Assembly: GCF_030409505.1 (NCBI RefSeq) | Contig: NZ_JAUFPZ010000002.1 | Span: forward strand, 3,169,501 to 3,233,500 | Length of the DNA: 64,000 nucleotides | Reading direction: 5' to 3' | Source: Zunongwangia endophytica | Lineage (GTDB): Bacteria; Bacteroidota; Bacteroidia; Flavobacteriales; Flavobacteriaceae | In this document: positions 3,480 to 38,615 of the stretch, piece after piece | Layout: every line of letters begins with the position of its first letter | How positions within the stretch are numbered: the stretch's first letter is position 1 | Translations under genes and position numbers: made by a program | The notes under the pieces: generated by a model | Seen by the model: the letters and a program-made list of their open reading frames with translations, nothing else | Databases searched by the model: none | What the model was told of the DNA's origin: nothing

Positions 3480-3780
3480 TTTTTTTATCAAGGTTAGCTA
3501 TAAAAGCCGGCATTAGTAGAACCCTAGAAGGGTTCGATATGCCCATTCGGGAAATGGACGTAAACGGAAAATAAAAGCCTTAGCCAGGTTTAAGGATAAG
3601 GAGCGCAATTCTGGGAACCAGCGACTGCACGTGTATAGTAGGGAGCTAAGAGATTTCTATTTAAAACACCAGGCAGGAACACTCATTATAGTAGACTAGA
3701 AGCAAAAAATGAAATCATCAAGGAAGAAACATTTGTACTAAGAGACTGGGGGATATTATGATCTAATGATCACAAAAAGT
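3478..3780 (+). pseudogene. Decayed C-terminal fragment of a Cas12f-like gene
   Basis: Translated with one frameshift near 3535, this stretch aligns with the C-terminal third of the Cas12f-like protein encoded at 34992-36092. The first part reads LSRLAIKAGISRTLEG (compare LYRRLAIQAALQRAQN). The second reads SGNGRKRKIKALARFKDKE, then RLHVYSRELRDFYLKHQAGTLIIVD (compare RLHVYSRMLIDFCIKQQAGTLILIN), followed by an in-frame stop. After a further shift, RDWGYYDLM matches RNWNYYELM. The N-terminal two thirds are missing. It is on the plus strand, inverted relative to the intact copy, and like it is followed by guide-RNA-like scaffolds. This is therefore the relic of a second complete effector-plus-guide unit. 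Confidence 0.8.
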
Positions 3781-3813
3781 CGGTATTTAACTGATAATTG
3801 GTTAAAACATTTT

Positions 3814-3900
3814 GAGGGTGCTTTTATACCCACAAGGTGAGCTGAACAATTCACTTACTAAATGCACTTAGCATATACAAAGCATGGACATCTCTCAATA
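3814..3900 (+). ncRNA. Guide-RNA-like scaffold C with following candidate guide
   Basis: Positions 3814-3880 align with scaffold A at 34915-34983. Shared parts are GAGGGTGCTT, a hairpin GGGT..ACCC, AAGGTGAG, a hairpin closed by CTTAC/TCAC-like bases, TAAATGC-ACTTA-GCAT (hairpin 3) and ATACAA. The following 20 nt, starting AGCATGGACATC, would be the guide. It lies downstream of the decayed effector fragment in the same relative position as scaffold A to the intact gene. Expression and function are unknown. Confidence 0.6.
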
Positions 3901-3982
3901 AAGTTTTTAGATGGAAAAACTATAGAATAAAAGTAAGAAAGATTAATTTAAAACAACAGATTATTAATATCTAGTATTCTTT

Positions 3983-4058
3983 TAATTGCATAAGGTGAGT
4001 TGAAAACTTTACTCAAGAAATGCGTAGACCTTATAAAAAGCGTGAGCATTCTTAATAG
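3983..4058 (+). ncRNA. Degenerate guide-RNA-like scaffold D
   Basis: TAAGGTGAG, CTTTACTCAAGAAATGC and ACCTTATAAAA align with the core of scaffolds A-C, but the first hairpin is missing and the third is damaged. The sequence following it, AGCGTGAGCATTCTTAATAG, resembles the candidate guide of scaffold C (AGCATGGACATCTCTCAATA). This suggests that C and D arose by duplication. It is probably a non-functional relic. Confidence 0.35.
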
Positions 4059-10200: not shown

Positions 10201-10243
10201 TATATAAGGGAAAATTAATATATAATTTTAAAAAAAACTTAAA

Positions 10244-11932
10244 ATGAAACTACTCAAAAATTTATTTTTAATCCTTCTTTTCAGTATTTGTATATCCTGC
10301 GATGAAGAAGAGTTCTTAACTGAAGAACCCAGAGACGATATATATGCCGATCAGTTGTACAAGGACTATGAAGGATTTCAAATGGCTCTTAATGCTTCCT
10401 ATGCGTTGGTAAGGGAAGAGTTTTCCTCAACACCTAACACTTCTTTAGCAACACAGGTCTATATGTTATCCGGAACAGACATTGCCTGGAGTCCCAATAC
10501 AAGTGGCACGGATTCAGATTGGTTAAACTGGAGTACTGATTTATCTCCCGATAACGATGCAATAGAAGACATTTTTATGTGGTTATCCCGAGAAATTAAT
10601 TCTGTCAACAAAATAATTGCCAGAGCCGAAAATCCTGATATAGACTGGCAAGGAGCGGATGAAAATGAAGATCTCAAAAGGAAGAACGAAATTATTGCCC
10701 ATGCTCGTTTATTAAGAGCCTGGGCCTATAGGCATCTTACCTATCTTTATAATGATGTTCCTTTAAATCTAGACGAAATTGACGGATCCAATTATAAGAC
10801 TGATTGGGAAAGAAAACCAGTTGCTGAGGTGAGAGCTCAGATGATAGAGGATTTAATTTTCGCAAAGGATCATTTACCGTGGCGATACCCTAATCCGAGC
10901 AGAGCTAACAAAGCAGTAGCCATGCATTATTTAGCAGAAACCTACTGCGCTATGAACCAGTATGAAAAAGCCGTTACTGAAGCTATGAACGTTATAAATA
11001 ATTCTAACTATTCATTGGTAACAAGCCGTTTTGGAGAAAATGCTTCCAATCCTGGAAATCTTTTTATCGATATGTTTCGTGAACCTTTTTATGCAAGCGG
11101 GAATACAGAGACTTTATGGGGTTTTTTAAATATTGAAGAGGATGTGAACCCTGAAGGAAACTTCCCTAACCGAATTAGAGATCAATATTATTCCTACTAT
11201 AGTAATGCTGCTCCTGTAAAGAACTATATGAATAATAATAACGTCTCTACAGATAATCAGTTGAAAGTATATGTATACAATGGCGGAAAAGGAGCACAAA
11301 GAGCGGCTATAACCCCGTGGGCATATGACTTATATGAAAGTGAAGATATAAGATCAGATGAATTTTCAATGGCAAAATATATCACTTTTCCCAATTTGAA
11401 TAATTCCTCAGAAGTTGATACACTCCTTTATACCCATACCACCATTTTTGAAGATCAGTTTTTTCAGACTGAAAAGGAAGAGGGAACCGGAGGCGCAAGT
11501 GCTGAATGGCCTTTCACAAAGAAGTGGGATTATGTCAACCTCTCCGATCCTAAAGGGGTGAACTCTTACAATGATTTTATATACCTAAGATTAGCCGAAA
11601 CGTATTTAGTATTAGCCGAAGCGCAATTGGGGAATGGAGAGCCAGAAGCTGCCCGTAAAACTCTAAATATTTTAAGAAATAGGTCCAGCGCTTCTGAATA
11701 TACCGGTATGGTAGACATAGATTTCATTCTAGATGAGCGCGCTAGAGAGCTCTTTGGTGAAGTGCCCAGAAGGCATGCATTAATTAGGACAGGTAAATTT
11801 TTAGAAAGAGCTAGAGCCCATAATAGGTACATGTTTTACCACCTAAAAGATTATCATGTTTTTTGGCCCATACCTCAATCCGTTATAGACTCTAATACGG
11901 GATCTACTATGGAGCAAAACCCTGGTTACTAA
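10244..11932 (+). CDS. SusD/RagB-type outer-membrane lipoprotein
   Basis: A 562-residue surface glycan-binding lipoprotein that acts as the lid of the SusC channel. The lipobox is in FSICISCDEEEF, with the lipidated cysteine at about residue 19. The sequence has the SusD alpha-helical TPR-like fold signatures, HARLLRAWAYRHLTYLYNDVPL and the C-terminal LRLAETYLVLAEAQL, and ends with MEQNPGY as most family members do. It lies 43 bp after its SusC partner and 23 bp before the SGNH hydrolase gene. Confidence 0.93.
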   Translation: MKLLKNLFLILLFSICISCDEEEFLTEEPRDDIYADQLYKDYEGFQMALNASYALVREEFSSTPNTSLATQVYMLSGTDIAWSPNTSGTDSDWLNWSTDLSPDNDAIEDIFMWLSREINSVNKIIARAENPDIDWQGADENEDLKRKNEIIAHARLLRAWAYRHLTYLYNDVPLNLDEIDGSNYKTDWERKPVAEVRAQMIEDLIFAKDHLPWRYPNPSRANKAVAMHYLAETYCAMNQYEKAVTEAMNVINNSNYSLVTSRFGENASNPGNLFIDMFREPFYASGNTETLWGFLNIEEDVNPEGNFPNRIRDQYYSYYSNAAPVKNYMNNNNVSTDNQLKVYVYNGGKGAQRAAITPWAYDLYESEDIRSDEFSMAKYITFPNLNNSSEVDTLLYTHTTIFEDQFFQTEKEEGTGGASAEWPFTKKWDYVNLSDPKGVNSYNDFIYLRLAETYLVLAEAQLGNGEPEAARKTLNILRNRSSASEYTGMVDIDFILDERARELFGEVPRRHALIRTGKFLERARAHNRYMFYHLKDYHVFWPIPQSVIDSNTGSTMEQNPGY

Positions 11933-16808: not shown

Positions 16809-19800
16809 ATGCAGCAAATTTTACAAGAAAAAGTTCTGCCCAATATCACTTCATTAATTCTGAATTCATTCTCAATTCTATTTGGATTGGCAATTATGTT
16901 TTGTACTGGACAGGCAGAGGCAACTCCAATGAAGGATCTTATCGGCAAGAATATTCAGTACACTATATCTGGAGAAGTGGTAGATTCTGAGGGATTACCC
17001 ATTCTAGGGATCAACGTTGTTGAAAAGGGTACATCAAATGGCACCATGACAGATATAGATGGTCTTTTTTCCCTTGAAGTTGATTCGGAAAAAGCAATTT
17101 TGGTTTTCTCTAGTATTGGTTTTGAAACTCAGGAAATTCCAGTTGAAGGCACACAAAATATTAAAGTTACCATGCAGACTTCCGTTGCTGGATTAGATGA
17201 AGTTGTTGTTGTGGGATATGGAACTTCTACTAAAAGAGATGTAACAGGTGCAGTAGCAAGCATCTCCGATGAAGAATTTAACCAGGGAGCTATTACAAAT
17301 CCCTTACAGCAAATTTCAGGAAAGGCTCCCGGGGTAAATATTAATCAGGTAGGGAGTGAGCCCGGCTCTACACCAAGTGTTAGAATAAGGGGAATAACTT
17401 CTCTTATAGGTGGAAATGATCCTTTGGTAGTTGTAAATGGTGTTCAGGGCAATATGGATTTGCTTAACCAGATTCCACCTAACGAAATTCAATCGGTAGA
17501 TATTTTAAAAGACGCTTCCGCAACAGCTGTTTATGGTTCCCGAGGTGCTCCTGGGGTAATTATTGTTACTACCAAGAAAAATAAGAGGGGAACTTCTACA
17601 CTTGAATATTCTTCTACTGCTTCGATAGATGTTCTTTCCAACGAATTGGATGTATTAGATGCAAATCAATGGTGGGAACAAGCACAGCGTTATGGTGTTC
17701 CAGCTTCAGCCAATCACGGTTCCAGTACCGATTGGTACGATATACTTACTCAAACGGGATATACTCAAAATCATACGATATCTTTTGGAGCAGGTACCGA
17801 TACTTTCAATTATCGGGCTTCTGTAAGTGCGATTTTACAAGAGGGTGTAGTACTTAATTCTAACAGCGATAAATATATAGCCAGGCTCTCCGCAAATCAA
17901 AAAGCTTTGGATGAAAGGTTGGATATCACCTTGAATATCAATACAGGAATTCTTGAAACAAGTAATAGCGTACAAAGTATAGGTAATGCGGCTTTTACTT
18001 CAAATTTGATTACTAACTCTTATTTTTTAAGACCAACAGATCCTGTTTTTGACACTGATGGAAGTTATTATACAGATCCTAATGTTTTTGAATATTTAAA
18101 TCCTTATGCTGTGGCTCAAACTACGGTAGATGAACGAGAGAATAACAACCTCTTTGTAAGTTTGAATGCAGATTTAGATGTATACAAGGGCATAACATTA
18201 GGATGGTTTGGTAGCTGGAGAAAAACCAATAATACTGTCGGATTCTTTTTACCTGTTGAATCGACAGATGCCAATGCTATAAATCAAAATGGGTTTGCCA
18301 ATATTAGTAATAGCAGGCAAGATGAAAAACTTACTAATCTAAGTTTGTCTTATGAAAATACTTTTGGGGAACATAAGCTAAACGCTTTGGCACTTTATGA
18401 GTGGCAACAACAATCCTATCAAGGTAATTATGGACAGGCACGCGGTTTCTTCAATAATGAAACAACTTACAACTCATTACAATCTGGCGACCTATCTGAT
18501 GTAAGATCGGGAGATATTTCTTCTTATAAAAATGATCGTAGCCTGGTTTCATTCCTGGGTAGGTTAAACTATACTTTAAAAGATAAATACTTGCTTACCT
18601 TAAGTTATCGTAGGGATGGTTCCTCGGTTTTTGGAGAGAACAACAAGTGGGGAAATTTTCCGGCAGCCTCTGTCGCCTGGAGGATTGATGAAGAAGATTT
18701 TATGCAGAATGGCATATTCAATCAACTAAAATTAAGGGCGGGTTATGGAATTACAGGAAATCAACAAGGTCTAATTCCGCAACAATCGCTGTCCCTGGTA
18801 AGCCCTGGAGGGATTACTTATTTTGGAGGGGAGCAAATACGTAACTTTGAAATATCCCAGAACTCTAACGAAGATTTGAAATGGGAACGAAAAAAACAAA
18901 CCAATATCGGAGTAGATTTCAGTTTAATCGATAGTAGGCTAAGTGGTTCACTCGATGCTTATACGGCAACCACCGATGATTTATTATTTAATTATACAGT
19001 TCCTCAACCTCCATTTCCTTATAACACGGTGGCTGCTAATGTAGGTAGTATAAGAAATCGTGGGATAGAACTTGCATTAAACTACGATTTTATAAGGAAT
19101 AATGATGTGACCTTAAGCCTGGGAGGTAATATGTCATTGCTTGATAATGAAGTCCTTAATTTGAGCGGTAGTATTGAAGGAGTTGAATTGAATACCGATT
19201 TTGTTCCCTGGGGAACTAACTCTTATTTGATCGAAGGTCAGCCTGTTGGGACATATTCTATTCTACAGCACGAAGGTATAGATGGTGTAGGAGCTGAAGT
19301 TGTGAGAGATATCAATGGTGATGGAACCATAGACCAGGGGGTAAGAAGTCCAGATAGGCAAATAGAAGGCTTAGCTTTACCAACCTATAATTTTGCCATC
19401 AATCCAAGATTTAGATACAAAGATTTTGATTTTTCAATGCTTTGGAGAGGTTCCGGTGGAAATAAAATTTATAACGGCTTAAGAAGAAATTTGAGTTTGA
19501 TGGAAAGCTTAGGTAATGCCAATGTACTGGAAAGCGCTGTCGATTTAGATCTGTTTACCTCTCAGTATAGTTCAAACTTATGGCTGGAAGATGGAGATTT
19601 TGTTAGACTGGAAAATGTAAATGCCGGCTATAACTGGCAGTTGGATACTTTTAAGTATATAGAATCAGTAAGATTTTCCATTACTGGAAATAACTTGCTG
19701 CTGATTACAGACTATTCCGGAATAGATCCAGAAATCAATTTCAGTGGAGGTAATGGTTTTGGCGGTGACTTCGGAATTTATCCGAGAACTACAAGTGTCG

Positions 19801-19829
19801 CATTAGGTTTACAAGTAACATTTAAATAA
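16809..19829 (+). CDS. susC: SusC-like TonB-dependent transporter, starch locus
   Basis: A 1006-residue outer-membrane maltodextrin transporter. The N-terminus is longer than usual before the hydrophobic segment (about 18-38, LILNSFSILFGLAIMFC). The carboxypeptidase-like domain (ISGEVVDSEGLPILGINVVE, about 55-130), plug (VVVVGYGTSTKRDVTGAVAS; SVDILKDASATAVYGSRGAP) and barrel follow. The start ATG at 16809 keeps the signal segment. susD begins 5 nt after the stop. Assignment to starch comes from the linked susD, SusE-like, GH13 and GH97 genes and the divergent SusR-like regulator. Confidence 0.92.
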   Translation: MQQILQEKVLPNITSLILNSFSILFGLAIMFCTGQAEATPMKDLIGKNIQYTISGEVVDSEGLPILGINVVEKGTSNGTMTDIDGLFSLEVDSEKAILVFSSIGFETQEIPVEGTQNIKVTMQTSVAGLDEVVVVGYGTSTKRDVTGAVASISDEEFNQGAITNPLQQISGKAPGVNINQVGSEPGSTPSVRIRGITSLIGGNDPLVVVNGVQGNMDLLNQIPPNEIQSVDILKDASATAVYGSRGAPGVIIVTTKKNKRGTSTLEYSSTASIDVLSNELDVLDANQWWEQAQRYGVPASANHGSSTDWYDILTQTGYTQNHTISFGAGTDTFNYRASVSAILQEGVVLNSNSDKYIARLSANQKALDERLDITLNINTGILETSNSVQSIGNAAFTSNLITNSYFLRPTDPVFDTDGSYYTDPNVFEYLNPYAVAQTTVDERENNNLFVSLNADLDVYKGITLGWFGSWRKTNNTVGFFLPVESTDANAINQNGFANISNSRQDEKLTNLSLSYENTFGEHKLNALALYEWQQQSYQGNYGQARGFFNNETTYNSLQSGDLSDVRSGDISSYKNDRSLVSFLGRLNYTLKDKYLLTLSYRRDGSSVFGENNKWGNFPAASVAWRIDEEDFMQNGIFNQLKLRAGYGITGNQQGLIPQQSLSLVSPGGITYFGGEQIRNFEISQNSNEDLKWERKKQTNIGVDFSLIDSRLSGSLDAYTATTDDLLFNYTVPQPPFPYNTVAANVGSIRNRGIELALNYDFIRNNDVTLSLGGNMSLLDNEVLNLSGSIEGVELNTDFVPWGTNSYLIEGQPVGTYSILQHEGIDGVGAEVVRDINGDGTIDQGVRSPDRQIEGLALPTYNFAINPRFRYKDFDFSMLWRGSGGNKIYNGLRRNLSLMESLGNANVLESAVDLDLFTSQYSSNLWLEDGDFVRLENVNAGYNWQLDTFKYIESVRFSITGNNLLLITDYSGIDPEINFSGGNGFGGDFGIYPRTTSVALGLQVTFK

Positions 19830-19834
19830 GACTT

Positions 19835-21331
19835 ATGAGAAAATTATATATAAAATTAGTCGGATTATTTGTGATTTCAGTTTTATTCTCCTGTACAGGG
19901 GATGTTGAAGAACAAGTTTATGATAAATATCAAGCTGATGAATTTTACTCCTCTACTGAAGGTGCCGATGTTGCACTGGCTGCAGTTTATGCCAATGTAG
20001 CCGGTAATTGGGGTGGTGTAGGTTATGCCGGTGCCGATAATGGATGGTATGATCTAAACAGTATGAGTGCAGATGAACAGGTAATTCCCCATAGAACAGA
20101 TGGAGCCTGGCAATTAGATTTTGCAAGACTTTATAAACACGAGTGGTTGCCTACAGATTTAATTGTAAACAATACCTGGAACTGGCTTTATGAAGCAATC
20201 TTTAGTGCAAATCTTGCCGTAGAACAACTGGAAACTGCGGGAGCAGCTCCATCAAAAATAGCTGAAGCCAAAGTATTAAGATCATTCTTTTATTATTTAT
20301 TGATGGATGATTATGGGAACGTCCCATTCTATACAACCAATGATGTTACAGTTGAAGAACTGCCACAGACAAGCAGACAGGAGGTTTACGATTTTATTGT
20401 TGCTGAATTGCAAGAGAACGTTCCAAATTTATCAGAGACAAAAGGTGGAGAGTACTACGGAAGGTTCAATAAGTGGGCCGGATACGGGCTTTTAGCTAAA
20501 GTTTATTTAAACGCTGAAGTTTATACAGGTACTCCACAGTGGCAAAAGTGTGTTGAAGCAATTGAAGAATTGGAAACTGGTGGGTTTTCTTTACATCCTG
20601 GATTAGCAAATGAGGCCAGTCCTAATGGCTATCAGTACTATGAATTATTTGGAGATCAGCTTCCAGGTGATGAAACTATTTTGGCAATGTTTGCTACGGC
20701 CAACGTAGTATCCAGAAATATTTTCACTATTAGAAGTTTAAGTGGCCCTCACGCCATGGAGCTATTCGGTGTGAGTGGCTGGAATGGATCTATCGTACCT
20801 CAAGAGTACTATAATAACTACGAAGATGGAGATATAAGGAAAGAACAGTTTTTACTAGGAGAGCAGCCAGGAGGGGTAAGTTATAGTCCACAGGTGAATT
20901 CATTAGATAACCCTGGTGCTGATCCTTTCGCAGGCGTAAGAAATATAAAATTTTATCCCGCTACACCTTTAGATGGGGGGGGAGCTTCCAATGATTTCCC
21001 AATATATCGATATGCCGATTTTATGTTAATGAAAGCAGAATGCTACATCAGGTTGGGTAATTCAGGAGCAGCCAAACCATTAGTTGATGCTATACGGGAA
21101 CGCGCTGGACTTTCAGCGCTGGATAGCGATCCAACCTTGGAAGATATTTATGATGAAAGGGGTTTTGAGCTAAACTGGGAAGGCCATAGAAGACAGGATA
21201 TGATTAGGTTTGGAACTTTTCTGGAAGCCAATGAATTTAGAGGTGCATCAGAAAATCATAGGAAATTATTCCCAATACCTACTTCGGCGTTAGATGCTAA
21301 TCCTAATTTGCAACAAAACCTTGGTTATTAA
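19835..21331 (+). CDS. susD: SusD-like starch-binding outer-membrane lipoprotein
   Basis: A 498-residue lipoprotein with lipobox VISVLFSC (Cys about residue 20). SusD helical repeats are visible (AKVLRSFFYYLLMDDYGNVPF; YRYADFMLMKAECYIRLG), and the typical C-terminal LFPIPTSALDANPNLQQNLGY follows. It binds glucan helices at the cell surface and caps SusC. It lies 5 nt after susC and 10 nt before the SusE-like gene, so all are in one operon. Confidence 0.93.
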   Translation: MRKLYIKLVGLFVISVLFSCTGDVEEQVYDKYQADEFYSSTEGADVALAAVYANVAGNWGGVGYAGADNGWYDLNSMSADEQVIPHRTDGAWQLDFARLYKHEWLPTDLIVNNTWNWLYEAIFSANLAVEQLETAGAAPSKIAEAKVLRSFFYYLLMDDYGNVPFYTTNDVTVEELPQTSRQEVYDFIVAELQENVPNLSETKGGEYYGRFNKWAGYGLLAKVYLNAEVYTGTPQWQKCVEAIEELETGGFSLHPGLANEASPNGYQYYELFGDQLPGDETILAMFATANVVSRNIFTIRSLSGPHAMELFGVSGWNGSIVPQEYYNNYEDGDIRKEQFLLGEQPGGVSYSPQVNSLDNPGADPFAGVRNIKFYPATPLDGGGASNDFPIYRYADFMLMKAECYIRLGNSGAAKPLVDAIRERAGLSALDSDPTLEDIYDERGFELNWEGHRRQDMIRFGTFLEANEFRGASENHRKLFPIPTSALDANPNLQQNLGY

Positions 21332-31252: not shown

Positions 31253-31555
31253 ATGGCAAAAATTGATGAACTATCGGAATTATTATGCGCCGAGCTGGCA
31301 AGCTTTGAGCAGCATATGAAACGACTGCAAGAAATTCACTCGCAAGGGATTCACCTGGATACCAAAGACCTCATACGACGACTTTCAAGTCTTGAAGATA
31401 CGCTGGATTTTGAAAAGAACGAATATGAAAGGATTTCTACGGAATTATCCAACACGATTAAAGAGGCAAAGATCTATCCGAAATGGGCGCTGGTTGTCTT
31501 TTTTGTTTCTTTGAGTCTTAATATTATTGGTATAGCGTTTTTGTTATTTAGTTAA
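31253..31555 (+). CDS. Small coiled-coil, tail-anchored membrane protein of the mobilization operon
   Basis: A 100-residue protein. Residues about 10-72 are highly charged and predicted coiled coil (LASFEQHMKRLQEI; SSLEDTLDFEKNEYERIS). Residues about 77-98 form one hydrophobic helix (WALVVFFVSLSLNIIGIAFLL). It lies 12 nt after the relaxase gene and is probably co-transcribed. MobB-like proteins with a membrane helix link relaxosomes to the membrane in some plasmids, a possible but unproven role here. Confidence 0.6.
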   Translation: MAKIDELSELLCAELASFEQHMKRLQEIHSQGIHLDTKDLIRRLSSLEDTLDFEKNEYERISTELSNTIKEAKIYPKWALVVFFVSLSLNIIGIAFLLFS

Positions 31556-31666: not shown

Positions 31667-32887
31667 ATGAATTACATTTACATTAATGGATCTAGTAAAG
31701 TTTCCATAAAATACTCCGAGGATAATTCAAAAGTAGAAGAAGTTTATATTGATGATAGTTTAGTAGAATTTGAAGAAGAGGACAAGCAAGATAAGCTCGA
31801 ATATGCAATAAAAACGAAGAGAAATAAATACCAAAAATTCCTGAATAAGCAATTTGAAAATTTAATTGTTTTAACTGGCGCAGGTTCTTCAGTTGGAATT
31901 GGAGAAAAGAATAAGGGAAGACTTTTATCACAATTATGGGATGACACGAAAGAAAAATTAGGTGAAGAAAAACTTAATCATTTCTGTGAATTAGTTAATT
32001 ACAATTCCAAAGATGAAAATGGAAATTATGTAAAAAATTTAGAAAAATTATTATCGATTGCTAACGCAGCTAAAGATTTTGTTGCTTCTACGAAGGAAAT
32101 TAATATCCCGAAAACTATAAAAGAAATAGAAAAACTAATTAAATCCAAATGTGAATTAGTTTTACCTAAAGATGCTCCTCACCATACTTTTTTAGAAAAG
32201 ATAACACGCCGAAAAGTAACGCTTCCAAGAGCAAAAATTTTTAATTTAAATTATGACACTCTTTTTGAACAAGCTGGGAGAAAGGGAAACTTCACAATCA
32301 TCGATGGCTTTTCATTCTCATTTCCTAGATATTTTAGTGGAAGAAACTTCGATTACGATATTGTATTAAGGGATAAAAGTAGATTAAAAGAAGAAGATAA
32401 TTTCAAAAAAAGGGTTTTTCACCTTTACAAACCACATGGCTCCGTAGATTGGGAAAAAGTAAAAAAAGACATTATTCAATCTGATAATGTAAAAAAAGCA
32501 TTAATGATCTATCCAAAAGACAGCAAATATGAAAGCTCATATGAGCAACCATTTTTTGAAATGATGTCACGGTTTCAACAAAACCTAAGGAAAGATAATA
32601 TTCTGCTAATTTGTATTGGATTTAGCTTTAATGATAAACATATAGTTACTGCCATCCAAGAAGCTCTCGAACAAAATTCAGGATTTCAATTAATGGTTAT
32701 AAATAAAGGGATTGACACTTCAGATAATTTAAAATGGCTTTTGGAATTAGCTCATAAACATTCCAATATTCTACTAATTGATGAACTTTTCTCAGATTTT
32801 GCAGAGCAATATCCTTTGCTAAAATCATATAACCAAGATGAGTATAAAAGAATTACTATTAACCTAAATGACACAGATGGAGAATAG
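31667..32887 (+). CDS. SIR2-domain anti-phage effector (SIR2-HerA system)
   Basis: A 406-residue protein with a SIR2-like NAD-binding domain: NLIVLTGAGSSVGIG at about residue 65-75, IFNLNYDTLFEQA at about 190 and FHLYKPHGSVDW with the catalytic-type His at about 262. The C-terminal part, LLICIGFSFNDKHI, closes the Rossmann fold. SIR2 proteins of this type deplete NAD+ when activated by phage. The next gene overlaps it by 20 bp and encodes a HerA-type ATPase, matching the known two-gene SIR2-HerA defence system. Codon use is more AT-rich than the mobilization genes beside it. Confidence 0.86.
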   Translation: MNYIYINGSSKVSIKYSEDNSKVEEVYIDDSLVEFEEEDKQDKLEYAIKTKRNKYQKFLNKQFENLIVLTGAGSSVGIGEKNKGRLLSQLWDDTKEKLGEEKLNHFCELVNYNSKDENGNYVKNLEKLLSIANAAKDFVASTKEINIPKTIKEIEKLIKSKCELVLPKDAPHHTFLEKITRRKVTLPRAKIFNLNYDTLFEQAGRKGNFTIIDGFSFSFPRYFSGRNFDYDIVLRDKSRLKEEDNFKKRVFHLYKPHGSVDWEKVKKDIIQSDNVKKALMIYPKDSKYESSYEQPFFEMMSRFQQNLRKDNILLICIGFSFNDKHIVTAIQEALEQNSGFQLMVINKGIDTSDNLKWLLELAHKHSNILLIDELFSDFAEQYPLLKSYNQDEYKRITINLNDTDGE

Positions 32888-34589
32888 AAATCCTTTTGAG
32901 CACAACTATTTCATTGGATATATTAATTACGTTTCAGCACAATTTGTAAAAGTCCACTTTCCTTCCTCCACCCTTCTCCAATCTTTTACATTTAAAGGAG
33001 AAAATCTAAATGGTGGATTAGTTGGAAACTTTGTTGTCATTGAAGGAGAACAATTCGGATTTTTAGGTAAGATTCAAGAATTGTCATTGCCTGAAAAAGA
33101 AAGATTAGAATTCAGCGAAAAATCTTTTAAGAATAGTGATTTCCACCCGACTGGTAAGATAGAAATATTACTATCTTTTGATTTATTTGAACCTACTAAA
33201 ATTGATAAGGGTTTAAATGCACTACCTGTTATCGGAGCAAAAGTTTTCGTTTGTTCATCTAATTTTATAAGAAGTTATTTTAGAAAATTCGGAATTAAAC
33301 ATGAGCATTTACAAACTAGTCCAGTTTTTGAACTAGGAAAATTAACTTTTGACAAATCCGCGCCAATTGAAGTATCACAACAAGCGATTTTTGGACGTCA
33401 CTGTGCCGTTGTTGGCACAACCGGCGGCGGTAAAAGTTATACTGTTAGTAAACTTTTAGAAGGTATTGTATCTAATAACGGAAAAGCTATTATAGTTGAT
33501 GCTACTGGTGAATATTCTACCCATGATAAAAACAGTTATTCTGATATTCCGGCCACATTATCCACTAATTCCTTTTTTCATTATTCTAACCTTACAGTTG
33601 GAGATTTATTCGTCTTGTTAAGACCTTCTGGTCAAGTCCAGCAACCAGTACTTTTAGATGCAATCCATTCATTAAAACTTGTTCAAATTGCTAAAAGAGA
33701 AAATAGGAATTTGGAGCAAATTAAAGATGGGATCTTAATTAAAAAACAAGCCTTAAAAAGACCAATATTTGATTTATACAATGAATTCTCTGAAGAAATT
33801 GAAAAAAGTAATGCTGATTTCGATATACAAAAATTGACTCAGCAATTAAGAAGGGAATGTGTTTATGACAGTCACAAATTTGGAGAAGATATAACAAGAT
33901 GGGGCGACTTAGACAAGCGAAAATTTGAAAATAGCACAAGTCTTTTTCTTAGAACAGAGAATCTTATTCAAACTGAATCTTTCAAAAATATTTTTGGGTT
34001 TGGAAAGCAGAAAACCGATGAAGGTGAGTTGGCCACTAGGATATCTGATTTTTTAAATGGGGATAAAAAGATTCTAAGAATCGGTTTCGAAAATGTAGGA
34101 TTTGATTTTCAAGCGAGAGAAATAGTTGCAAATGCTATCGGGAAATACTTGTTAGAAATGGCCAGAAAAGGTAAATTTAATGAAAAGCCCTTAGTATTAT
34201 TTGTAGATGAGGCACATCAATATTTAAACAAAAGTGTTAAGGATGAATATTTTGAACTGACGCAATTAAATTCATTTGATTCTATTGCTAAAGAATGTAG
34301 AAAATATGGGCTTTTTCTTACAATAGCAACTCAGATGCCAAGAGATATACCTCTTGGTACTCTTAGTCAAATTGGTACGTTTATCATACATAGATTAATC
34401 AATCATTATGACAAAGAAGCAATAGCTAATGCAAGTTCTTCTGCCAATCGAAATACATTAGATTTTCTGCCGGTTTTAGGTGCTGGTGAAGCAATTTTAA
34501 TGGGAGTTGATTTTCCTATGTCTGTCATGTTAAAAATAAATAAGCCTTTAACTCCTCCTAATTCGAATACTCCACAATTCAAAATTTAA
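32868..34589 (+). CDS. HerA/FtsK-type ATPase, partner of the SIR2 effector
   Basis: A 573-residue hexameric-type ATPase. The N-terminal HAS-barrel-like region (about 1-165) is followed by the Walker A motif VVGTTGGGKSYTVSKLLEG (about 180-198). Walker B is PLVLFVDEAHQYL (about 442-455), and the sensor/arginine-finger region includes FLTIATQMPRDIPLGTLSQIG. It overlaps the SIR2 gene by 20 bp; the start could be ATG 32868 or ATG 32877. In SIR2-HerA systems HerA forms a complex with SIR2 and controls its NADase activity. The gene is followed directly by the convergent guide-RNA/Cas12f-like locus. Confidence 0.86.
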   Translation: MTQMENRNPFEHNYFIGYINYVSAQFVKVHFPSSTLLQSFTFKGENLNGGLVGNFVVIEGEQFGFLGKIQELSLPEKERLEFSEKSFKNSDFHPTGKIEILLSFDLFEPTKIDKGLNALPVIGAKVFVCSSNFIRSYFRKFGIKHEHLQTSPVFELGKLTFDKSAPIEVSQQAIFGRHCAVVGTTGGGKSYTVSKLLEGIVSNNGKAIIVDATGEYSTHDKNSYSDIPATLSTNSFFHYSNLTVGDLFVLLRPSGQVQQPVLLDAIHSLKLVQIAKRENRNLEQIKDGILIKKQALKRPIFDLYNEFSEEIEKSNADFDIQKLTQQLRRECVYDSHKFGEDITRWGDLDKRKFENSTSLFLRTENLIQTESFKNIFGFGKQKTDEGELATRISDFLNGDKKILRIGFENVGFDFQAREIVANAIGKYLLEMARKGKFNEKPLVLFVDEAHQYLNKSVKDEYFELTQLNSFDSIAKECRKYGLFLTIATQMPRDIPLGTLSQIGTFIIHRLINHYDKEAIANASSSANRNTLDFLPVLGAGEAILMGVDFPMSVMLKINKPLTPPNSNTPQFKI

Positions 34590-34711
34590 AAAAAAAGAAA
34601 GGATCGGAAAAACCCTAACACGCAGATTAAAAGACGGATTAAAGACCAAATAATCATGGTACATTTTATTTTGGTCAGCCCATAATTCCTGTATTTTTCA
34701 GCCTTCAGATC

Positions 34712-34806
34712 TAAATTTTCTAAGCTTAATTGTTGTAAATACTGCGTGCTTTTAGTGAGTGTCATTAAAGATCTAAACCTCACCTTACGGGTATTCTAAT
34801 TATCCC
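34712..34806 (-). ncRNA. Guide-RNA-like scaffold B with candidate guide
   Basis: Read on the minus strand, 34806 down to 34732 aligns with scaffold A. The two share ACCCGTAAGGTGAGGT, then CTCACTAAA, then GCAGTATTTACAAC, where A has GCAGCATATACAAC. The first hairpin is weak (GGG..CCC), and the second is closed by GTGAG/CTCAC. The following bases (34731 downward, AATTAAGCTTAGAAAATTTA) are unrelated to those after A, as expected of a variable guide. Farther down, 34664-34678 repeats a 15-nt piece of the Cas12f-like gene's 3' end. B may therefore be left from a duplicated unit. Confidence 0.6.
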
Positions 34807-34894
34807 AAGTGTACTTACACCAAAAACCTTAGATTGTAGTTAATTTTTAATGACTACATATAAATATTTCTGTTTACCATAATTCCCAGTTTAT

Positions 34895-34983
34895 CTTATC
34901 GCGGGAAGGCTTTTGTTGTATATGCTGCGCGCATTTAGTGAGAGCTACTGAGACCTCACCTTACGGGTGTACAAGCACCCTCA
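34895..34983 (-). ncRNA. Guide RNA candidate (scaffold A) of the Cas12f-like/sigma system
   Basis: Immediately downstream of the Cas12f-like gene on the same strand. The scaffold (34983 to 34915) folds into three hairpins. They are GGGTG/CACCC (34980-34976 with 34969-34965), GTGAG/CTCAC (34959-34955 with 34942-34938) and ATGC/GCAT (34934-34931 with 34925-34922). It ends with ATACAAC. The variable part begins at 34914: AAAAGCCTTCCCGCGATAAG. Scaffold similarity among copies A, B and C at three places, with divergence exactly after ACAA(C), is the signature of a structured guide RNA. RNA ends are estimated. Confidence 0.72.
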
Positions 34984-34991
34984 TTTTTAAT

Positions 34992-36092
34992 TTAATCCAC
35001 GATAAGTTCTATTCCGGCTTTTTCAGCCTTATATTTTATTTTGGTCATCAGTTCATAGTAATTCCAATTCCTTAAAACAAATCCATTTTCCTTTTTGGCG
35101 ATCTCCATTTTATCTTCCTGATTTATTAAAATGAGTGTACCTGCTTGCTGTTTGATACAAAAATCAATAAGCATCCGACTGTATACATGCAAACGGTTAC
35201 CTACATAATTTTTTTCTTTTTCGTGAAATCTTTCTACTGCTTTTGTTTTGCGTTTACGACCTTTTCCTGATCTACAGTAGGCCGTAGCATTTTGCGCCCT
35301 TTGTAAAGCAGCCTGTATGGCTAATCTTCGATATAAAAACTCCTCTCTACTACCAATATTAAGCTTTGCTTTACCAGATTTCACTATAATTGGATATTCA
35401 AGAGATAGAGAAGCTTCTGCAATGACTTCCGGTTTTAAGCTATGTTTTTCTTTCGCGACTTCAAATACGGCCAACCAATAAATTTTTCCTTTATTCAGTT
35501 GAATTTTAGAAGCGCAGAGTTTGATTTGGCCGGCTACTACCTGTTTCAGCAAGCTCCGTTTATCCGTATAATCCTTGCCTAAATAGGTTTTAAAAGGGAT
35601 GGAAAATAGTCGAAAGCAAAATGCTTTTTTTTCATTTTTATAGGATAATCCATGAATACCTATCGTTCCAAATGGAAAAGGAATATCCCTTCTAAAATTT
35701 GCCAGAGAGCGCTCTCCCCTCCTATATTGCGCTAAGTTTTTACCAAAATTATTCATGATATTATAATTCATATTGGCTAAAATGTTGGTTGGGACATCAC
35801 CTTTAAAACGATCGGATACCACCCGGTAGGTACAATTGCTCTTTGAACGATTGAGCATGCCATCTTCAGCTTTCTTATCATCGACCAGCCTATATTTTAT
35901 CCCTTCAGATAAATAAAAAAAATCCTTAATCATTTCCTGAATATACTGGTGGGTAACGATGAGATTACCTGCCCTATAGCTTCGGTTCTGCCAACGGTAT
36001 AGAGTATCAAGAGCCTCTTTTCTTTCTTCTTTGGTAGGGGCGTCGACCCGTAGCTGGATCTTTCGGGTAAGTTTTATGGTTTCTTTTCTCAT
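34992..36092 (-). CDS. Nuclease-dead Cas12f/TnpB-like RNA-guided DNA-binding protein
   Basis: A 366-residue protein whose C-terminal half aligns, from memory, with the RuvC region of Cas12f. EVIAEASLSLEYPII (about 222-236) corresponds to Cas12f SIIGGIDVGVKSPLV, so the RuvC-I Asp is Ser228. The bridge-helix-like RRLAIQAALQRAQ (255-267) and KNYVGNRLHVYSRMLIDF (294-311) follow. GTLILINQEDKM (318-329) corresponds to GTVQMENLESM, so the RuvC-II Glu is Ile323. The protein then ends at GIELIVD, before the TSxxCxxCG zinc finger and RuvC-III Asp. It should bind guide RNA and DNA but not cut. The sigma-factor gene ends 2 nt upstream, and guide scaffolds follow. No transposase or transposon ends are seen. 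I infer RNA-guided recruitment of the sigma factor. Confidence 0.8.
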   Translation of the reverse strand: MRKETIKLTRKIQLRVDAPTKEERKEALDTLYRWQNRSYRAGNLIVTHQYIQEMIKDFFYLSEGIKYRLVDDKKAEDGMLNRSKSNCTYRVVSDRFKGDVPTNILANMNYNIMNNFGKNLAQYRRGERSLANFRRDIPFPFGTIGIHGLSYKNEKKAFCFRLFSIPFKTYLGKDYTDKRSLLKQVVAGQIKLCASKIQLNKGKIYWLAVFEVAKEKHSLKPEVIAEASLSLEYPIIVKSGKAKLNIGSREEFLYRRLAIQAALQRAQNATAYCRSGKGRKRKTKAVERFHEKEKNYVGNRLHVYSRMLIDFCIKQQAGTLILINQEDKMEIAKKENGFVLRNWNYYELMTKIKYKAEKAGIELIVD

Positions 36093-36094
36093 GA

Positions 36095-36871
36095 CTAAGC
36101 CGATTGTTGTTGTTTGTGTTTACTTTGTAAAAGCTTATAAGCAGTCACAAATTCCTTGTGGACTTCTTTTTGGGATAGTTGGAGTTCTTCTGCAATAGCC
36201 GCAAAAGAATAGTGCATTTCATTCCGTAGCTGTAAGACTTTTTCTTGTTCCCTGGTTATTCTAGTATTTTTCTTTACTTGAATTTGATCAGGTTTTGAAC
36301 CCAAATTACTCCCGTTATGAATAATTTTTTTAATATCGTCAATCGCTCTTTTTATCTCATTACTAGTATAGGTAGTGCTTGTTCCCATAAGCTCAGCAAT
36401 ATTTTTATATTGAAAACCGTATTTTAAGCAGAGTTCAATTAAATATCTTCTTTCCGGTCTGAGTAAAGGAAAAATACGGCTTATCCGATCAAAGGCTTTT
36501 TGGTCGGCTTTCTGAACCTGTAAGTGATCATCCTCTTTTTGCGGGTCATAACCGTGCATATATTCCTGATAATTCTCAAAATATTCTAATCTGCCTATAT
36601 TCCGTTGAAAATTATGCTTAGGTCGTGTATAATAATATGTACAATCCCTCTTCATCACAAAGCGGAGGAAAAAGAAAATATGTTCCGGTTCCTGTATCCG
36701 TTCCCTTTTCTGCCATAGTTTTAAGAATGTATCCTGAAGGATGGTTTCAATGACAAATTCGTCCCGAATTAATTTCTTTCCTAACCCAAAAAGCCTATGA
36801 TGATATCTGGCATAGATAAACTCCATGGCATCAGGATGTCCTTGTTTTAAAAGTTTAAACTCACGTTCCAT
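36095..36871 (-). CDS. ECF-type sigma factor with extra C-terminal HTH, linked to Cas12f-like gene
   Basis: A 258-residue sigma-70-family protein, longer than the usual 170-200. Region 2 (about 5-75) has LLKQGHPDAMEFIYARYHHR, then LQDTFLKLWQKRERI, then HIFFFLRFVMKRDCTYYY. Region 4 (about 130-184) has LLRPERRYLIELCLKYGFQY and AELMGTSTTYTSNEIKRAI. A further helix-turn-helix follows a linker (about 205-250, REQEKVLQLRNEM; FAAIAEELQLSQKEVHKEF). I start at ATG 36871; TTG at 36877 is in frame. No anti-sigma gene is adjacent. The Cas12f-like gene begins 2 nt after its stop, so the two proteins are made together. It probably brings RNA polymerase to sites chosen by the Cas12f-like protein and its RNA. 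Confidence 0.85.
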   Translation of the reverse strand: MEREFKLLKQGHPDAMEFIYARYHHRLFGLGKKLIRDEFVIETILQDTFLKLWQKRERIQEPEHIFFFLRFVMKRDCTYYYTRPKHNFQRNIGRLEYFENYQEYMHGYDPQKEDDHLQVQKADQKAFDRISRIFPLLRPERRYLIELCLKYGFQYKNIAELMGTSTTYTSNEIKRAIDDIKKIIHNGSNLGSKPDQIQVKKNTRITREQEKVLQLRNEMHYSFAAIAEELQLSQKEVHKEFVTAYKLLQSKHKQQQSA

Positions 36872-37264
36872 TGCCAACAGGTTTTAGTGCTGGATCGGAT
36901 CTTCGAATGGGTATTGTATTAATAATTAATACCAGTCTCTCGGTATGGTCTATAATTTTCATAGTTTGGTGTGGTTTTGTTTGTCTTTAATTAGTTCATG
37001 AAACCATAGGCCTTCCCAAACTGCCGTTAAACTTTAGGGAAGACTACGAGTTTAAGGAAAGGCTTTCTGGCTTCTGGCCTAGGCTAAATGGCTAATTCAT
37101 TAAACGGTGGTTTGTTTCTTCTTATAGGTTTGGTTAAAAAATTCATTTTTAATTTATCTACCTAGCTTTATTTTTATCTCTTAAATCGAAAATAAAATTA
37201 AGCAAGGGGTAAGTCAGAATTCCTTACATATAAGCTTATAAGACTCGAATATAGTAAAAAAATC
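36872..37264. promoter_or_regulatory. Control region upstream of the sigma/Cas12f-like operon
   Basis: A gene-free region of about 390 bp. An imperfect inverted repeat at 36910-36933 is bounded by GGTATT and AATACC around TATTAATAATTAATA, 40-60 bp before the sigma ATG. A second inverted repeat, CCTTCCC..GGGAAG, lies around 37011-37040. These may be operators. No standard -33/-7 promoter was recognised. Confidence 0.4.
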
Positions 37265-37745: not shown

Positions 37746-38615
37746 TTATAATTCATATCCAATCTTGTTTACAATAATCTCACTAATTGCTTTGTTATCG
37801 TTAAATTGCGCAAACAGGTCATTGATATTTTTAGTGATTTCCTTACATCGATTAACAGATATTTTTTCTAAAAAATAGCATATAATTCTTATAGATGAAG
37901 ATAAGGAATGTCTTTTATTTCTGTCTATATCAATTATGGGAGTAGATTTAATCCCTAAAGGTGTATAAGAATCAAATAGTAAATCACTATGTGCGCAAAT
38001 ATTGCGAATAAATAAAATAGTAGTAAGGTAATTTTCGAAAACCCCTAAGCTTTTTATGCCATATTGTTCTGCTATCTTTTTTTGTAAATCTTGATTATGT
38101 AGTGATAAGTACAATTTTATAACACTACCGAAAGTTAAATATTCCAATGTTTTCCAAGCAGGAGCATAAATATCATTTGAGTGCTTTCTATGATGATTTT
38201 TTATGGGCTTATTATTTTTTTTAAAACTCTCTGTGTAGATTTTGGGAAACCCTTTCACAAATTGATGGGAAACTATTTTTTTGTCAGCAAACCAGGTAGG
38301 GTTTTTATCATAATAATTAGAAACGTAATAAATTAATTGGGTTTTAAAATTAATTTCTATCCTATTTAATGCTCTGGATAATATATGTTTTAAATCTGTA
38401 TCTAAATAATAAAGCTTTACTACATCTGAAAATTTAGTGCCATTTTTTAGATTATGATGTTCATCTATTTCGAAAGGATTCCAATAGAAGCCTAAACGGT
38501 AGTAACCAATATCAAGTAGGATTTCTTTGGCCTTGACATCGCCTAAATCCATCGTCATATTTCTACCTTTAAGCTTATCTATTTGTTCGTCAACTGTAGT
38601 TGCTGTTTTCCCCAT
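37746..38615 (-). CDS. Abi-family (AbiD/F-like, HEPN-type) abortive-infection protein
   Basis: A 289-residue protein of the Abi_2 family. Typical segments are LLDIGYYRLGFYWNPFE near residue 32-48, KLYYLDTDLKHILSRALNRIEINFKTQLIYYV near 68-100, and WKTLEYLTFGSVIKLYLSL near 155. The RNICAHSDLLFD segment at about 208 has the Arg-x4-His HEPN ribonuclease motif. These proteins stop phage growth by RNA cleavage or related toxicity. It is alone between the XRE gene (convergent) and the integrase, at the variable right end of the element. Confidence 0.83.
   Translation of the reverse strand: MGKTATTVDEQIDKLKGRNMTMDLGDVKAKEILLDIGYYRLGFYWNPFEIDEHHNLKNGTKFSDVVKLYYLDTDLKHILSRALNRIEINFKTQLIYYVSNYYDKNPTWFADKKIVSHQFVKGFPKIYTESFKKNNKPIKNHHRKHSNDIYAPAWKTLEYLTFGSVIKLYLSLHNQDLQKKIAEQYGIKSLGVFENYLTTILFIRNICAHSDLLFDSYTPLGIKSTPIIDIDRNKRHSLSSSIRIICYFLEKISVNRCKEITKNINDLFAQFNDNKAISEIIVNKIGYEL

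Follow-up and report, generated by a model that had tools for sequence, protein, structure and literature searches.

What would a Cas12f protein that has lost its catalytic residues do beside a sigma factor gene, and which genes would its guide RNAs address? The question is raised by a locus of the marine bacterium Zunongwangia endophytica, found in a stretch of 64,000 nucleotides (nt) of contig NZ_JAUFPZ010000002.1 (assembly GCF_030409505.1, positions 3,169,501 to 3,233,500), here called the window, to which coordinates refer unless a contig is named. On the minus strand, the locus encodes an extracytoplasmic function (ECF)-type sigma factor, a nuclease-dead Cas12f (dCas12f) and a guide RNA. 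We regard it as very probably a dCas12f-sigmaE RNA-guided transcription cassette with targets in the leaders of SusC-SusD operons and, possibly, in the leader of its own sigma gene. Judged from sequence, the cassette probably switches on outer-membrane nutrient-import genes and perhaps its own operon.

A sigma factor gene followed by a nuclease-dead Cas12f gene

The sigma gene (36095..36871, minus strand) precedes the dCas12f gene (34992..36092, minus strand), the end of the former at 36095 and the start of the latter at 36092 leaving a gap of 2 nt. The sigma start was placed at the ATG at 36871, in preference to the upstream TTG at 36877 offered by the open reading frame (ORF) lister, because the relatives in the genus begin with MERxF at that point. 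Compared with PDB chains, the sigma factor, which we consider the partner of dCas12f, matches the RpoE chain 9n9q_C with 286.5 bits; in Pfam, sigma-70 region 4 scores above the cut-off and region 2 slightly under it.

The dCas12f protein, of 366 residues, matches chain 9n9c_A, deposited as "Nuclease-deactivated Cas12f", over residues 1-365 with 575.4 bits. Over its first 100 residues, the printed sequence of 9n9c equals the Allomuricauda taeanensis protein (locus L031), with which the window protein shares 252 of 366 residues (69% identity). Cas12f and TnpB nucleases follow in the same search with 154 to 34 bits. The PADLOC Cas12f model gives 173.3 bits, the NCBIfam TnpB model 62.2 bits, under its cut-off of 100, and Pfam returns TnpB/Cas12f traces only, all sub-threshold. 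When the protein is aligned to the Cas12f nuclease 9nzo, Ser228 takes the place of the Asp in the VDLG motif and Ile323 that of the Glu in the MER motif, two positions that we take to be catalytic (RuvC-I and RuvC-II, respectively); the nuclease extends for approximately 90 residues past the end of the window protein. The active RuvC nuclease of CRISPR-Cas12f (type V-F) is thus missing from this protein, with the residues replaced and the C-terminus gone. Ser is found at position 228 in at least 90% of 30 relatives.

An initial reading of the DNA letters, made by a model without database searches (hereafter the sequence-only reading), had described an ECF sigma gene, a 2-nt gap and a compact Cas12f-like gene, had assigned Ser228 and Ile323 to the two acidic positions, had the protein stop before the zinc finger and the RuvC-III Asp and had expected no cleavage. 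The database matches bear out the genes and the homology to RuvC/Cas12f proteins, and the 9nzo alignment arrives at the same residues and the same truncation. For comparison, loci with relatives were collected from GTDB genomes: of 269 pattern matches, 214 had a relative, and 79 distinct loci were retained. A sigma homolog is present in 80 of the 81 loci examined.

Guide RNAs of the cassette

A guide RNA begins 10 nt past the dCas12f stop. Its intact scaffold (34915..34982, minus strand) was detected by covariance model R1, built on 48 scaffolds of relatives with the window excluded, at 83.6 bits (E = 1.8e-19), and is followed by guide 1, AAAAGCCTTCCCGCG (34900..34914, minus strand). Just beyond the interval originally assigned to the locus (34895..36871) lies a second scaffold (34732..34807, minus strand; 40.1 bits, E = 2.6e-8) with a decayed 5' stem, followed by guide 2, AATTAAGCTTAGAAA (34717..34731, minus strand). 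These two scaffolds are the same-strand "structured repeats" of the sequence-only reading. A guide length of about 15 nt is suggested by the point at which matches to the leaders described below stop.

In the three-stem structure of the scaffold, 98.4% of cells are paired and the covariation score exceeds that of all 500 shuffles (48 scaffolds; the shuffles ignore relatedness). By pattern scan, 69 of the 78 loci numbered L015 to L092 have the arrangement GAGGGTGCTTGTACACCC-GTAAGGTGAGG-(loop)-CACTCACTAAATGC-(loop)-GCATATACAAC downstream of dCas12f. When run over six genomes of the genus, model R1 found scaffolds in five, the five with dCas12f. In the genome of Z. endophytica it gave just four single scaffold copies, the two above and two beside a relic described below, with no CRISPR array among them, a search dedicated to arrays or to cas1/cas2 not having been made.

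Several relatives carry more than one guide RNA. A copy of the dCas12f 3' end after the guide RNA is clear in 12 of 23 cases tested, all in L015, L016, L019, L020, L021 and L023; it was not seen in L026, L029, L062 and L084, nor after one guide RNA each of L020 and L023, and L014 was included but yielded no row. This suggests that in those six loci guide-RNA arrays grow by tandem duplication that includes the dCas12f 3' end, the copied end behind the guide RNAs of relatives measuring about 80 nt. Similar remnants after the two guide RNAs of the window were considered and dropped, since 62 of 300 and 9 of 300 shuffles attain the score.

SusC leaders as candidate targets

The guides were compared with the 700 nt upstream of SusC genes of the MKNNY class in the same genome. 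Of 88 such comparisons, 34 gave a match of at least 12/15. Shuffled guides reached this score in 7 of 880 cases, and guides set against the upstream stretches of other SusC genes of Z. endophytica in 43 of 4136; at 14/15 the corresponding counts are 9/88, 0/880 and 4/4136. G002 and G022 have the same sequence at these loci, so that one D-class match is doubled and the count becomes 33/87 without G022; G001 and the Zunongwangia atlantica contig are likewise identical in sequence there. Of 29 leader loci listed, 27 were used (L257 and L263 were dropped, no start being found): 13 of 30 fetched by SusC similarity, 6 of 13 further stretches (L264 to L268 unused) and 8 found by pattern. The last (seven genus loci and L110) were reached via leader or guide patterns and are not an independent sample. 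The control of other SusC genes consists of 47 upstream stretches of the Z. endophytica genome only. Of 58 SusC match rows 49 were used, the nine omitted being contig-end duplicates, second pieces of one gene or rows of contig C3.

The matched sites of the different guide classes recur at similar distances from the SusC start: 471-530 nt, and once 615 nt, for the GCGTGGGCTC class; 250 nt for the GAATCGCAGC class (one genome counted twice); 112-126 nt for the AATTAG class; 79-90 nt for the GCCTTCCC class; and, once, 619 nt for the GGCGTGTCATCC class. In Zunongwangia the guides begin with two to four other bases and then show GCCTTCCC. A search for the 3' arm of the Zunongwangia leader hairpin in the six genus genomes gave 37 hits, 30 of which were fetched, and placed the leader before the sigma gene and before an MKNNY SusC gene in all five genomes with dCas12f. 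In G003, the only one of the six without dCas12f, the two 3'-arm hits are not such leaders.

Guide 1 matches exactly within SusC leaders of two sister species, G001 and G005; the same guide occurs in G005 but not in G001. In the Z. endophytica genome, 2 of 49 SusC upstream stretches bear a hairpin leader resembling that of the window's sigma gene. Both lie on contig C2, near 4.167 Mb, where guide 1 matches at 12/15 and the site is preceded by A, and near 1.275 Mb; by sequence match they are the best candidate targets of guide 1 in this genome, and the predicted target operons comprise SusC, SusD and an M16 peptidase. As a 20-mer, guide 1 finds itself alone in this genome.

The window itself holds two SusCD operons, at 7261-11932 and 16809-21331. 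In the 700 nt upstream of them, the best 15-nt matches of guide 1 reach 9/15 and 10/15 and those of guide 2 reach 11/15 and 9/15. A resemblance between the sequence downstream of the first guide RNA and the region upstream of the SusC gene at 7261 was set aside as probable chance, the guide itself being unmatched there. No convincing target was found for guide 2: its 20-mer has nine hits beyond itself in the genome at 2-3 mismatches, versus five control hits (no 15-nt genome search was made), and none of the seven hits fetched is upstream of a SusC gene, one being inside a SusC-like gene (L009).

A candidate self-site before the sigma gene

By pattern scan, 101 scaffolds were detected in 76 loci (L001 to L006 and L014 excluded). 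The sequence after the ACAAC of the scaffold differs between loci yet sorts into classes. The commonest is the A class, (G)GCGTGGGCTCTCTTAT, and various relatives have a matching site between 165 and 215 nt ahead of the sigma start. When 15-nt guides were compared with the 310 nt that precede the sigma gene of their own locus, at least 12/15 was reached by 19 of 95 guides (10 of 1900 shuffled guides, 9 of 1367 random 310-nt pieces) and 13/15 by 15 of 95 (0 of 1900 and 3 of 1367); related rows recur in these counts, as in the genome swap discussed below, and because guides are related to one another, both inside a genome and across relatives, the counts are not independent events.

Besides the guides and the sigma leaders, the A-class 16-mer, searched with up to two mismatches in five genomes, lies before SusC genes in two of them, the genomes of L016 (at L108) and L060 (at L110), and before other ORFs in G009 (L106, L112, L114 and L116); the reversed-pattern control gave two hits in all over the five genomes. 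In Sinomicrobium weinanense (genome of L046), it is before these small non-SusC ORFs that the A-class leader stands with its guide site.

An exact pattern search found no A-class leader in the Z. endophytica genome. Upstream of the window's sigma gene there is a hairpin leader (37001..37067, minus strand) whose 5' arm, GAAAGCCTTTCCTTA, is a possible self-target; its match to guide 1 is weak if taken alone in this genome.

Hairpin leaders and a possible attenuator

The A-class leaders were aligned (alignment A3: 32 distinct leaders, e.g. L172, L227, L232 and L110). RNAalifold predicts a terminator formed by the guide-site strand and a strand downstream of it, the latter followed by a T run in most rows. 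In a structure of this terminator written by hand, 98.8% of cells pair and the covariation score is above all 500 shuffles. A competing long hairpin (CTGGTA/TACCAG, GATAAG/CTTATC, GCTCACG/CGTGGGC) is 99.7% paired, also with covariation above all shuffles; one of its pairs shows eight changes from U-A to C-G, but the number of its pair types is not above shuffles (444/500). The guide-site strand is common to both folds, as in attenuators, and the first six A-class leaders folded singly adopt either fold. No Rfam family reached its gathering score on the A-class leader in the six loci scanned, and an Rfam scan of the window gave nothing relevant. The B-class leaders, GCCTTCCC...GGGAAGGC, are inverted repeats of a simpler build, in which the 5' arm is the guide site; that of the window shows no unusual stability when folded by itself (z -1.62; 13 of 200 shuffles equally good).

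In the dCas12f-sigmaE work of 2025, the distance from the site to the downstream transcription start is reportedly about 46 nt. A start at this distance would give a transcript without the 5' arm of the leader hairpin. Tentatively, and with less than even confidence, we suggest that in Flavobacteriia a guided start skips this arm, so that the terminator could not form and the cassette and nutrient import would be switched on. Such an attenuator bypass would fit the position of the sites, which are the 5' arms of A- and B-class leader hairpins before one SusC-SusD class and the sigma-dCas12f operon; the guide-RNA arrays of some Salegentibacter and relatives may then choose among several sites per leader.

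Genomic surroundings and a relic copy

When the window is compared with three sister genomes, the sequence that can be aligned is largely that of the cassette, from 34727 or about 34786 to 37135 or 37546, with two other pieces at 31320-31523 and 34576-34666; the cassette is therefore found in different surroundings. Its flanks in the window belong, by PADLOC, to defence families: a SIR2-HerA pair at 31667-34589 (plus strand) and an AbiD-like gene at 37746-38615 (minus strand). The sequence-only reading had placed the cassette on a mobilizable element with carbohydrate-uptake operons. As to the first part, the cassette does lie among mobilization genes, namely an MbpB/MobB-like relaxase (below the NCBIfam cut-offs), NikA-like and primase-like genes and a tyrosine integrase. 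The SusCD operons of the window, in turn, are not predicted targets (at most 11/15). A Zunongwangia atlantica contig (L086) carries the integrase with 100% identity over 401 residues. Within the stretch examined in the 81 loci, a related relaxase occurs in 14, a NikA-like gene in 14 and a primase-like gene in 12, which suggests repeated carriage of the cassette by mobilizable elements; a relaxase or NikA-like gene is near the cassette in, e.g., L034, L035, L044, L046, L019 and L016.

A dCas12f relic corresponding to residues 269-355, with two stops, lies at 3529..3789 (plus strand), about 120 nt after a transfer RNA gene. It is followed by a scaffold at 3814..3881 (plus strand; model R1, 61.9 bits) and by a second, strongly decayed one at 3972..4039 (plus strand; 20.3 bits, E = 0.0029 in the window and 0.2 in the whole genome). 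The guide of the relic has no convincing match among the regions tested.

Proposed mechanism and rival explanations

We propose that the sigma-dCas12f-guide RNA operon yields, after processing of the guide RNA, a complex of dCas12f and guide that would bind a DNA site of about 15 bp. The bound protein would recruit its sigma factor together with RNA polymerase, and transcription would begin downstream of the guide site. In this lineage the sites would lie in the leaders of one SusC-SusD operon class, here SusC-SusD-M16 peptidase. In some relatives, and possibly here, a further site in the leader of the sigma-dCas12f operon would create positive feedback. RNA-guided transcription had been the sequence-only reading too, and it gains support from the agreement of the protein, the sigma factor and the scaffold with a solved system or its close relatives and from guide matches at SusC genes above controls.

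A number of observations weigh against this explanation. At the SusC genes, 54 of the 88 guide-leader pairs fail 12/15. Upstream of their own sigma gene, 76 of 95 guides stay below that score, and self-targeting is therefore limited to a minority of guides. Swapping genomes keeps the fit, at least 12/15 being reached at home by 23 of 38 guides and elsewhere in 179 of 494 comparisons, the home score exceeding the mean of the other genomes for 30 of the 38. Genome-by-genome co-variation of guide and leader, considered at one point, was rejected by this test, the pair of G004 being equally well matched by other genomes. The SusC leaders are a conserved family, and the guides, to judge by these scores, address the family with no home-genome advantage. 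In Z. endophytica, guide 1 scores 10/15 both at the second SusC leader, near 1.275 Mb, and at the sigma leader, and its 15-mer occurs with up to two mismatches only at itself and at two sites, 774241 (L203, inside an ORF) and 2123026. The target is reportedly preceded by G in the 2025 work; this holds at the A-class sigma sites (G in 17 of 17, where that G is also part of a conserved loop), but the base before the SusC site in the genus is A. Activity at the guide-matched leaders is, moreover, a prediction from sequence.

Such points feed the most serious rival, which we hold to be unlikely but well short of negligible: that a cassette of the known kind is idle or decaying here, its guide no longer having a target and the system persisting as a passenger of a mobile element. 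In two sister species SusC leaders fit guide 1 perfectly, but at home the best score is 12/15; scaffold 2 is decayed, the second dCas12f copy is a relic, and 14 of 81 loci have a related relaxase close to the cassette. Yet dCas12f, the sigma factor and scaffold 1 are all intact, and the leader has been kept at two SusC operons and at the sigma operon of this genome. Because the best SusC leader in this genome matches guide 1 at only 12/15, activity of the cassette is less certain in this strain than in the family.

The structured leaders allow another, quite improbable, explanation, in which the guide RNA binds the transcribed leader by base pairing and tips the balance between terminator and anti-terminator, dCas12f serving as RNA carrier. 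A-class guides do equal the strand common to both folds and could pair with either partner strand. The site classes 250 nt and 112 nt upstream, however, fall outside this switch, and the linked sigma factor points to initiation, solved relatives including dCas12f with RpoE (9n9q). The same entry, which joins a dCas12f relative and an RpoE chain, and the sigma homologs of 80 of 81 loci make it very improbable that dCas12f blocks promoters as a repressor beside a bystander sigma gene. TldR proteins work in that manner, without a partner sigma factor, whereas here the sigma gene is adjacent. In nuclease loss and short guides, on the other hand, the cassette resembles TldR. TldR proteins (PMC13418256) are TnpB-like nuclease-dead repressors and, like the protein of the cassette, RNA-guided regulators of the TnpB/Cas12 lineage. 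An active CRISPR-Cas12f or TnpB nuclease, finally, would agree with the PADLOC and NCBIfam matches, but the replaced catalytic residues, the absent C-terminus and the conservation of Ser228 among relatives leave it with practically no probability. We retain the RNA-guided transcription cassette as the best explanation of the locus.

Known relatives and implications

A report of 2025 is said to describe dCas12f-sigmaE RNA-guided transcription in Bacteroidota; a search of titles and abstract openings in the open literature found no paper on a dCas12f-sigma system. PDB entries 9n9c, 9n9m, 9n9o and 9n9q presumably represent the system of Flagellimonas (Allomuricauda) taeanensis. The cassette resembles it in dCas12f (69% identical), a homologous sigma factor, gene order and scaffold family. 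It differs in its guide (AAAAGCCTTCCCGCG here versus TTGTGGGATATACGC in L031), in the decayed second guide RNA and relic copy present in the window, and in the base before the likely SusC site, A here and reportedly G there. From TldR it is set apart by the linked sigma factor and by predicted activation rather than repression. With CRISPR-Cas12f (type V-F) and TnpB nucleases it shares a homologous protein core, but it lacks their catalytic residues and has one to few separate guide-RNA units in place of a CRISPR array. The cassette is, in sum, a further member of an already known kind; what it adds is a likely target family, a candidate self-site and a leader that resembles an attenuator.

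To our knowledge, RNA-guided activation in bacteria is a very recent subject and its natural purpose is little documented. The guide-leader matches offer concrete candidate targets, one SusC-SusD class and possible feedback onto the sigma gene, and link a CRISPR-derived regulator to a structured RNA leader without an Rfam family in the loci scanned. Attenuator bypass, if true, would join two regulatory layers, guided initiation and attenuation.

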